This document shows positions 12,260 through 15,327 of a stretch of 64,000 nt of DNA, piece by piece. Each line of letters opens with the position of its first letter. Within the stretch, counting starts at the first letter, position 1. The stretch comes from Treponema sp. (lineage in GTDB: Bacteria; Spirochaetota; Spirochaetia; Treponematales; Treponemataceae). The position numbers were made by a program, and so were the translations under genes. The notes under the pieces were generated by a model, which made no database searches, was not told the origin of the DNA, and worked only from the letters and a program-made list of their open reading frames with translations. The stretch is from positions 248,001 through 312,000 of the forward strand of contig JAEEIU010000038.1 in assembly GCA_016281495.1 (NCBI GenBank), read 5' to 3'.

Positions 12260-14650
12260 ATGATTCAAGCATTTTTACAAGTTTTTTATGCAATTTTTTC
12301 TGGTCTCGTTCAGGGCTTGGCCATTTCCAACGAAATTCTGCCCTTTGGATCCCCGTTTTTAGGCCTTTTCTGCCTTATTCCGCTGTATGTCGCCTTGTAC
12401 AGGGCCAAAAGCTACAGGGAGGCATTCCTGCTTTTTGCGCTTCAGGCCATGACAGTGCACCTTACATCAAGCTACTGGCTGTATAATTTCCACGGCTATG
12501 CATTATGGTCTCTTGGGGCAAGCGCTTTGGGAACCGCCGTACTTGGAGGCCTTACCGGAGTTGTAATCTTCTTCCTTCCACGTCAGCTCAGCTACAACCG
12601 TAAGAAAACAGAGCTTGAGGAGGCAGGAGGCCGCAGGGTTTACCTTATTCCTGCAAGAATACTGTGGTTTGCCTCAAGTTTCGTATTCTGGGAATGGATA
12701 AAGTCCACGGGTTTCCTTGGTTATCCATGGGGCACCCTGTTCATGACCGCCTACAGCTGGAAAATAATGACTCAGATCGCGGACATCACCGGAGTCTGGG
12801 GAATAACCTTCATATTCGCACTTTTCAACGCACTGGTCGCAGAAGGATTTAACGTACTAAACCTGCTCCCACACGCCCAAAAACCGTCTGTTCCCGCCTA
12901 TACCTACAGGAAAACGGCAAAGGCAACGGCCGTCATACTGTGCCTGACCGCAGTTTACGGAATCTTCCAGTATATTGTTCCCAGAAGCGTAAAAAAAGAA
13001 CTCAACGCAATAATCGTCCAGCAGAATGTGGATCCATGGGACGGAGGTGACGAGGCTTCCATCTCCATATCCACAAGGCTTACAGAACGTGAAGCCACCA
13101 GGATGCGTGAAAACGGAAAGGAACCGGACCTTGTACTCTGGAGTGAGGGTGCCCTAATGTACACCTTCCCCAACGCGGTAGACTATTACAGCGAGGAGCC
13201 GGAGGGAGAAAGCCTTACCGAATTTATCAAAAGGATGAGGGTGCCATTTTTAATCGGCGGAAGCACAATGACCGACAGGCAGCACCGCAAGATTTCCAAC
13301 AGCGCGATACTCTTTGACAAGGACGGAGAGTATGCGGGATTTTACTCAAAAATCCATATGGTGCCTTTTGCGGAGGACGTTCCTTTCATGGACAACCCGC
13401 TTATGGCGGCCTTTATGACAAATGTCGTGAAAATGCCGTATTCATACACACCAGGAAACCAGTACGTGCTGTTCAAGATTCCCCTTAACTCTTCAACTTT
13501 CATGACGGCCCCCCTAAGGGACGGTCTTGAGCCATATGAGACCATAGAGCTTGACTCAACCGGAAGGGTTGATTATGAGGAAACAAGGAAATACAGGTTC
13601 AACAGCAACGAGAATCCGGACAGTTTCGTAAAATTCAGCTCGCCAATTTGCTTTGAGGACGCATTCCCGGATGTGTGCACGCCTCTTTTCAGGAGCGGAA
13701 GCGAGGTTTTCCTGAACATAACCAACGATTCCTGGAGCAAAACTCCTTCCTCGGAATACCAGCACTTCATCGTTGCAAGTTTTCTTGCAATTGAATACAG
13801 GACGACTCTTGTACGCTGTGCCAATGCGGGATATTCCGTGGTCGTGGGCCCAAACGGAAAGATACTGAACGACATGGATGTTTTCACAGAGGATGCCATC
13901 GGATGCACCATTCCCATCTACGAAAGGAAATCCACGGTGTTCTCCATTCTTGGAGACTGGTTCGCATACCTCCTCTTTGCATGCATGGCGCTTTATTTTG
14001 CCGTTAAGTGCGTTGTCTTCAACTTCAAAAGGATAAAGCAAAGCCCCGTAATGCTTAAGCTTGCTAAATCAATACTTAAGGAGAACGAGGACCAGGAAAC
14101 TGGCTGGGACATAGAGCCGGACGAGGATTTGGATGATGTTGAGGATGAACCAGAGGGCTCTAATCAGAACAGCACGGAGACTGAAGGACTTTTCACAAGA
14201 AGTGAGAATGAAACCGGATTCCATAACTCATTCATGCTTTCCGAATACAGGACTGAAGCCACTTTGACCAAACCTGCAGAATCTTCAGGAACACGTACAG
14301 CAAGGAAAAGGAAAGGTACCGATACGGTCAAAGCCAGAAAGACGCCGGCAAAAACAGAGGAAAAGCCAAAGACAAGAGCCAGGAAAACGGCAGCGGCAAA
14401 AACCGGAACAAAAAGGTCTTCCCCGGCCAAAGCAAAAGAAACAAAGGCAACAGCATCTAGAACCACTACAAGAAAGCCAAAGGCAGCAAAGGCCATCACT
14501 AAAAAAGCGGAGACAGCAACAACCGCAGGAAGGAAGGCCCTTGAGGCAAAAACCACTGTAAGAAAAACACCTGCGGTAAAAAACAAAACGGCAGGAAAAA
14601 AACAGGATAAAACGAATACCAGAGGCGGAAGGAGGCAAAGTAAAAAATGA
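12260..14650 (+). CDS. lnt: Apolipoprotein N-acyltransferase Lnt with Lys/Ala-rich C-terminal tail
   Basis: Inner-membrane enzyme that adds the third acyl chain to the lipoprotein N-terminal cysteine. The N-terminal ~240 residues hold several membrane helices. The nitrilase-like catalytic domain follows, with a Glu-Lys-Cys triad: E296 in LVLWSEGALM, K364 in FYSKIHMVPF and C464 in SPICFEDAFP. The Lys-to-Cys distance is about 100 residues against about 50 in E. coli Lnt, so there is an insertion. A last helix lies near residue 570. After it come about 100 acidic residues, then from about residue 675 a tail rich in Lys, Ala, Thr and Pro (KTPAKTEEKP, KPKAAKAITKKAE), resembling histone H1 or Hc1. 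The tail is about 200 residues beyond a normal Lnt. The stop overlaps bioY by 4 nt. Confidence 0.93.
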   Translation: MIQAFLQVFYAIFSGLVQGLAISNEILPFGSPFLGLFCLIPLYVALYRAKSYREAFLLFALQAMTVHLTSSYWLYNFHGYALWSLGASALGTAVLGGLTGVVIFFLPRQLSYNRKKTELEEAGGRRVYLIPARILWFASSFVFWEWIKSTGFLGYPWGTLFMTAYSWKIMTQIADITGVWGITFIFALFNALVAEGFNVLNLLPHAQKPSVPAYTYRKTAKATAVILCLTAVYGIFQYIVPRSVKKELNAIIVQQNVDPWDGGDEASISISTRLTEREATRMRENGKEPDLVLWSEGALMYTFPNAVDYYSEEPEGESLTEFIKRMRVPFLIGGSTMTDRQHRKISNSAILFDKDGEYAGFYSKIHMVPFAEDVPFMDNPLMAAFMTNVVKMPYSYTPGNQYVLFKIPLNSSTFMTAPLRDGLEPYETIELDSTGRVDYEETRKYRFNSNENPDSFVKFSSPICFEDAFPDVCTPLFRSGSEVFLNITNDSWSKTPSSEYQHFIVASFLAIEYRTTLVRCANAGYSVVVGPNGKILNDMDVFTEDAIGCTIPIYERKSTVFSILGDWFAYLLFACMALYFAVKCVVFNFKRIKQSPVMLKLAKSILKENEDQETGWDIEPDEDLDDVEDEPEGSNQNSTETEGLFTRSENETGFHNSFMLSEYRTEATLTKPAESSGTRTARKRKGTDTVKARKTPAKTEEKPKTRARKTAAAKTGTKRSSPAKAKETKATASRTTTRKPKAAKAITKKAETATTAGRKALEAKTTVRKTPAVKNKTAGKKQDKTNTRGGRRQSKK

Positions 14651-15327
14651 CCGACAGAACCAGGACTTCTTTGATCAGGACAGTTTTTACGCTAATTTTC
14701 ACAGGCCTCAGCTGTCTGTCATGCTTTTTTTCCATTAAGCTTACTGGAACCATTCCCATTACATTACAGAACCTGTTCTGCATTCTTGCGGGGCTGATAC
14801 TGGGAGGAACCCAAGGTGCGGGAGCTACAGGACTCTTTTTGATCCTTGGCGCACTGGGACTTCCCGTATTTGCAGGCGTAAAAGGCGGATGGGATGTCTT
14901 TACCGGGGCAACGGGAGGTTATTTGTGGGGTTATTTCCCGGCGGCATTTATTTCCGGCATAATCGCAGGAACACCGCATGCCTTTGAGAAAAACTTTGAC
15001 ATAAAGAACTGGATTCGCATAGCCCTTGCATCCGTAGCGGGATTTGTGGTTGTCTATCTTCCCGGAATTCCCTGGTTCATCCACTTCATGAAGGAGGAAG
15101 GAACGGCATTGGGCATTTCCGAGGCCATGAACGTCGCCCTTACACCATTCATCTTCATAGACTTCATAAAAATCATAATAAGCATTCCTGTAGCGGCTCT
15201 GCTGAGGCCTGTGGCTGCAAAATACCTTTATCCAGATGACGAGAAGGAACTTGAGGAACTGATGAAAAGCCTGAAAGACCGCAAGGACCTCATGAACAGG
15301 ATTACCGGAAAGTTCAAAAGGAAATAA
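14647..15327 (+). CDS. bioY: Biotin transporter substrate-binding subunit BioY
   Basis: Membrane S-component for biotin uptake (ECF-type, or solitary in some bacteria). The 226-residue protein has about six hydrophobic segments and the BioY signature region, including GTIPITLQNLFCILAGLILG and the motif PVFAGVKGGWDVFTGATGGY, then WGYFPAAFISG. The C-terminus has a charged extension (DDEKELEELMKSLKDRKDLM) likely in the cytoplasm. It overlaps lnt by 4 nt (ATGA), so it is translated with it. No ECF ATPase or transmembrane subunit is in the window, so the module partner is elsewhere or absent. I see no BirA operator here, as expected for the second gene of an operon. Confidence 0.93.
   Translation: MTDRTRTSLIRTVFTLIFTGLSCLSCFFSIKLTGTIPITLQNLFCILAGLILGGTQGAGATGLFLILGALGLPVFAGVKGGWDVFTGATGGYLWGYFPAAFISGIIAGTPHAFEKNFDIKNWIRIALASVAGFVVVYLPGIPWFIHFMKEEGTALGISEAMNVALTPFIFIDFIKIIISIPVAALLRPVAAKYLYPDDEKELEELMKSLKDRKDLMNRITGKFKRK

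Follow-up and report, generated by a model that had tools for sequence, protein, structure and literature searches.

A Treponema Lnt paralog with a histone H1-like cytoplasmic tail: a candidate tether between inner membrane and nucleoid

Within a 64,000-nucleotide stretch of a Treponema sp. genome (hereafter the window; assembly GCA_016281495.1, contig JAEEIU010000038.1, positions 248,001 to 312,000 of the forward strand), a paralog of the acyltransferase Lnt is extended at its C terminus, past the last membrane helix, by about 200 residues, in which an acidic linker is followed by 121 residues of basic, histone H1-like composition. We propose that this extension is an HMGA/H1-like nucleic-acid-binding tail that would tether Lnt, and with it the inner membrane, to the nucleoid, a proposal to which we give an even chance of being correct. 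The case for DNA rests on the orthologous tails, on composition and on precedent; on these grounds we infer both DNA binding by the window tail and its tethering role.

The gene is a single open reading frame (positions 12260-14650, forward strand) encoding 796 aa. Its product scores 263.8 bits against the Lnt equivalog model TIGR00546 (cut-off 132.9) and exceeds the cut-offs of both PF20154 and PF00795, the Pfam models for the Lnt N-terminal and CN-hydrolase domains. The catalytic triad, taken from the E. coli enzyme (PMC5500888), corresponds to Glu296 (positions 13145-13147; E. coli Glu267), Lys364 (13349-13351; Lys335) and Cys464 (13649-13651; Cys387, within a PICFEDAF motif), all on the forward strand and all invariant in an alignment of 34 orthologs. 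An AlphaFold2 model built from the same ortholog set, with good confidence up to residue ~590, contains the eight-helix membrane domain and the nitrilase domain; Foldseek aligns it to E. coli Lnt with a TMt of 0.80, and its best PDB matches are all Lnt structures from E. coli or P. aeruginosa, from 5.5e-22 (E. coli) downward. The window Lnt has, in short, an ordinary, periplasm-facing catalytic body, and Lnt is an enzyme that acts following export and signal peptide removal. The tailed form is likely to be active in N-acylation, since it is the sole Lnt above the cut-off in 8 of the 23 genomes that possess one, several of them near-complete (G001, G142, G173, G166 and G189).

In the model the eighth and last membrane helix spans residues 567-594 (positions 13958-14041; hydropathy peak at residues 560-586; the original prediction had placed it near residue 570), and it is followed by a predicted cytoplasmic helix of moderate confidence (residues 596-613; 14045-14098). 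Residues 614-796 are predicted to be disordered (pLDDT under 50) and comprise most of the acidic linker (residues ~612-675; 14093-14284), with a lowest 30-residue net charge of -15, and the H1-like basic tail (residues 676-796; 14285-14647), which ends at the stop codon (14648-14650); all of these features lie on the forward strand. The H1-like tail of ~200 residues that had been proposed for this protein, acidic at first and then basic over about 120 residues, is real, its basic segment containing 42 Lys and Arg residues versus 7 Asp and Glu (net +35). Its composition had been only partly foreseen: Lys (23%), Thr (21%) and Ala (17%) are indeed abundant, but Pro, which had also been named, accounts for only 4% and its place is taken by Arg (12%), so that Lys, Thr, Ala and Arg together make up 73% of the segment. 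The expectation of tandem-like coding DNA did not hold, as the window tail contains no tandem array and TRF reports only a 21-bp trace; repeated units are found in the tails of some relatives (L008, L009 and L065). The order of charge along the extension, a 30-residue minimum of -15 followed by a maximum of +11, is that of HMGA-like domains of the CarD type. The window tail has no Pfam match, the AT-hook (PF02178) and Hc2 (PF07382) models included, and no RGRP hook, and SPKK-type motifs are not enriched in the tails.

In E. coli Lnt the N and C termini are both cytoplasmic (PMC5500888). Given that the window protein shares the eight-helix fold of the solved Lnt structures, its tail is almost certainly cytoplasmic as well, and a location outside the cell, which had been raised as a possible objection, is not borne out. 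By a polymer estimate the 197 residues past the helix could extend ~12 nm on average, and as far as ~70 nm when fully stretched, which is enough for contact with the nucleoid.

Orthologous tails are present in independent assemblies (L005, which recurs as the yak rumen MAG record L037; L006/L038; L007; L008). Since alignment of low-complexity sequence in itself favours matches, the comparison between the window and L005 tails was set against codon-shuffled controls: the alignment scores 211, versus 82+/-12 for the controls, and yields a pN of 0.315 and a pS of 0.725, the control pN being 0.449+/-0.030. The two proteins are 83% identical over the core and 46% identical over the tail, where 31 of 41 aligned basic residues stay basic and a single one turns acidic. 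Taken together, a pN below pS, a score well above that of the shuffles and the retention of basic residues indicate that the tail is fast-evolving yet under purifying selection, largely for charge.

The stop codon overlaps the ATG of bioY (14647-15327, forward strand), just as the original prediction had the tail running directly into that gene, and bioY lies downstream of the tailed lnt at 17 of 24 tailed loci. The lnt-bioY order (12260-15327 in the window) is also kept at 54 of the 111 collected loci, in many cases with the two genes overlapping by 4 nt.

An Lnt match was found in 194 of 196 genomes of the genus (Treponema, according to the named records). We collected 111 distinct Lnt sequences in and around the genus, picked by similarity to the window protein and thus not a random sample, and scored as basic any tail of 50 residues or longer in which some 40-residue window reaches a charge of at least +8. 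By this rule basic tails are carried by 24 of the 111, so that the feature does recur in other Treponema Lnt proteins, a point that the original prediction had put forward for checking; 20 of them belong to the window's own clade of 40, and the remaining 4 to the 71 sequences outside it. Half of the clade lacks the tail, which is consequently not required for acylation. At least 13 changes of tail state are needed on a 111-row tree and at least 9 on a 44-row tree, counts in which gain and loss are not told apart. The tails themselves come in several types: rich in Lys, Thr, Ala and Arg (the window), KKS/KKA (L007, L027), TTAAKSTR repeats (L065), rich in Lys and Ser (L134, L138) and bearing AT-hooks (L008, L020), with Lys-rich tails devoid of hooks being the commonest form in the genus. 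Fifteen of the 23 genomes with a tailed Lnt encode another Lnt above the cut-off, in frames of 543-591 aa that leave no room for a long tail. Unlike the window Lnt, the second Lnt of the same genome (L001, C48:64 kb) has only a short tail.

Outside the genus, no such basic tail was found on the long Lnt frames examined among the best ~150 matches listed. The longest non-genus frame among these (685 aa; L209 of genome G213) owes its length to an extension that is partly hydrophobic rather than basic, and the frames of G331 and G432, long as they are, lack a C-terminal tail. The L209 extension contains additional hydrophobic helices and what appears to be a small soluble domain. Long Lnt tails in a distant family of Spirochaetota (f17) are of mixed charge, with other motifs, and represent a different feature. 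These f17 tails (L197-L200, L203-L205, L211) are cytoplasmic and contain conserved short motifs, PSAKKVDEYINND..LPSLDD and SEISSALTxIIEENEES. Searches of the literature, whether for such a tail on a Treponema Lnt or for a lysine-rich nucleoid protein in Treponema, returned nothing relevant.

The DNA-binding reading of the tail, one of those that the original prediction had offered and thus far supported in part, is strengthened by putative AT-hooks in orthologous tails. The L020 tail passes the AT_hook model PF02178 (19.8 bits, cut-off 17.4) with two copies, KRGRPKK and KRGRPRK, which in a six-frame search are the sole AT-hook matches of that genome at E up to 10, and the L008 tail contains KRGRPP four times, scoring below the cut-off of the same model. 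Over 25 tails, the [RK]GRP motif occurs 6 times versus 0.12 expected from within-tail shuffling, and two tails with at least one such motif arise in 0.5% of shuffles; the chance per lineage of one or more motifs (0.014 and 0.027) is the more honest figure, because the four copies in L008 may stem from a single duplicated motif. A sister relationship between L008 and L020 is rejected (AU p 0.003), while a clade uniting L007, L008 and L020 is not (AU p 0.143), so that two independent origins of the hooks need not be assumed. The L007 and L005 tails carry only a hook-like RGRK. L007, the sister of L008, has the same acidic linker, with KKS/KKA repeats where L008 has KRGRPP hooks; it also gives a weak match to the histone H1-like Hc2 model PF07382 (E 0.006; 17.1 bits, cut-off 40), a model that leaves the window tail unmatched.

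For comparison within the genome, ~710 ORFs from 799 kb (a 25% sample) served as background. Among their most basic 80-residue segments the window tail ranks second, and the window Lnt is the only bearer of such a segment among the 117 proteins with at least 3 predicted membrane helices in these 799 kb. The only other comparable low-complexity basic segments in the sample belong to three proteins: an RpoD-like sigma-70 factor and a DEAD-box helicase, whose names come from inspection of their sequences rather than from a profile search, and a soluble protein. A sequence search of the genome for a second copy of the tail gave two weak matches only. The sigma factor (L162:17115-19358; C48, ~77-79 kb) has an N-terminal H1-like extension of ~130 residues rich in Lys, Ala and Thr, in which the basic extension precedes an acidic block, that is, the pairing of the Lnt tail in reversed order. 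The soluble protein (L166:6764-7570; C48, ~147 kb) combines GRKGGRPKKE with an H1-like C-terminal tail and has no significant Pfam match. We count this company (sigma factor, helicase and GGRPKK protein) in favour of a DNA tether, along with the contrast between paralogs in 15 of 23 genomes. Counted against it are the absence of a hook or Pfam match in the window tail, the lack of SPKK enrichment, the presence of tails on just 20 of the 40 clade Lnts, and the RNA helicase among the bearers of basic segments, which makes RNA or ribosome binding likewise compatible with the composition.

Several known systems resemble parts of this arrangement. E. coli Lnt (5N6H; TIGR00546) shares the fold, the eight membrane helices, the Glu/Lys/Cys triad and the cytoplasmic C terminus but stops shortly past the last helix, some 200 residues short of the window Lnt. 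In the HMGA-like domain of Myxococcus xanthus CarD, a disordered acidic segment precedes a basic region that binds DNA and carries RGRP hooks, which also occur in the L008 and L020 tails; CarD, however, is a soluble transcription factor, whereas the module here sits on a membrane enzyme and its window copy has no RGRP hook. The CarD hooks can be replaced by other basic disordered domains, and the L007/L008 pair, with the same linker and repeats in place of hooks, resembles a naturally occurring replacement of this kind. The KPAA tails of Pseudomonas AlgP and PhaF are likewise H1-like, long, Lys/Ala-rich, disordered and C-terminal, and have been tied to nucleoid tethering, the PhaF tail being thought to tether the granule to the nucleoid (PMC9239181); these, however, are soluble or granule proteins with Pro-rich repeats, as opposed to a K-T-A-R tail on a membrane enzyme. 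That a DNA binder can be anchored in the membrane is documented by Rv3852 of Mycobacterium tuberculosis (PMC8233713), which is held there by a transmembrane helix but is a small dedicated nucleoid protein with no enzyme domain. Chlamydial Hc2 (PF07382) shares the Lys-rich H1-like composition but is a free nucleoid protein.

It is on account of the AT-hooks, the L007/L008 exchange and the AlgP/PhaF and Rv3852 precedents that we consider the nucleoid tether the best reading. In mechanistic terms, the cytoplasmic end of Lnt would carry a disordered H1/HMGA-like module made of an acidic linker and a basic arm, of which the arm would most probably bind chromosomal DNA, without sequence specificity or, in tails with AT-hooks, with a preference for AT. 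Lnt would then act as a tether from membrane to nucleoid, or would itself be positioned by the nucleoid, and the acidic linker would keep the basic arm away from the membrane or modulate the arm's affinity.

The main rival, which we regard as improbable although worth weighing seriously, is that the basic extension is a tether to ribosome or translocon, one that binds ribosomes and places Lnt near the sites of lipoprotein export. Extensions of Oxa1, Alb3 and some YidC proteins have the same anatomy and position (basic, disordered, past the last helix and on the cytoplasm-like side), and the 107-residue basic tail of Alb3 binds ribosomes and loses that binding upon deletion of its basic motifs (PMC8733628), the text consulted mentioning neither AT-hooks nor an acidic linker for such extensions. 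The prevalence of hook-less Lys-rich tails in the genus also suits ribosome binding, yet the AT-hooks of two orthologous lineages point toward DNA, and an enzyme that works after export would have no obvious gain from being close to the ribosome. Rather unlikely, in our estimation, is a purely electrostatic attachment to anionic phospholipids or polyphosphate that would regulate the position, stability or lipid environment of Lnt with no specific role for nucleic acids. Charge is the best-kept property of the tail, the short Lys-rich tails of other clades in the genus could work in this manner, and in AlgP an H1-like tail is responsible for the placement of polyphosphate granules (PMC9239181); such binding, however, leaves the AT-hooks unexplained as well as the acidic linker, which would oppose contact with the membrane. 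Somewhat more doubtful still is a weakly constrained low-complexity extension, generated by repeat slippage and selected solely against harmful (acidic or hydrophobic) changes. The 9-13 gains or losses, the wide variation in length, the repeated units in L009 and L065 and the 46% identity of the tail against 83% in the core would all fit, but purifying selection exceeds the alignment effect of low complexity, the hooks exceed the expectation from composition, and where two Lnts exist just one is tailed. Finally, a frame error or artificial fusion joining a normal Lnt to a separate downstream basic protein, against which the original prediction had cautioned, has practically no chance of being true: no finding speaks for it, and it is refuted by the intact frame, the same tail in the independent assemblies, the 4-nt bioY overlap in several lineages and a pN well under pS in the tail frame.

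Beyond this single protein, the nucleoid tether leads us to a more tentative idea, somewhat less probable than the tether itself: that within one genus the addition of exchangeable H1-like or AT-hook tails to one of two Lnt paralogs has time and again made a chromosome-to-membrane anchor out of a housekeeping enzyme of the envelope, as a transmembrane counterpart of the HMGA/CarD arrangement. Attachment of the chromosome to the bacterial inner membrane is poorly understood beyond a few well-known systems, and the tail found in this rumen-type Treponema suggests that a widespread enzyme of the envelope may also serve as such an anchor. Related species that differ in whether the enzyme has a tail and in the kind of tail (H1-like or AT-hook), while a paralog without one is present in the same cell, constitute a natural experiment on nucleoid tethering by a membrane enzyme and on its effect on lipoprotein maturation.
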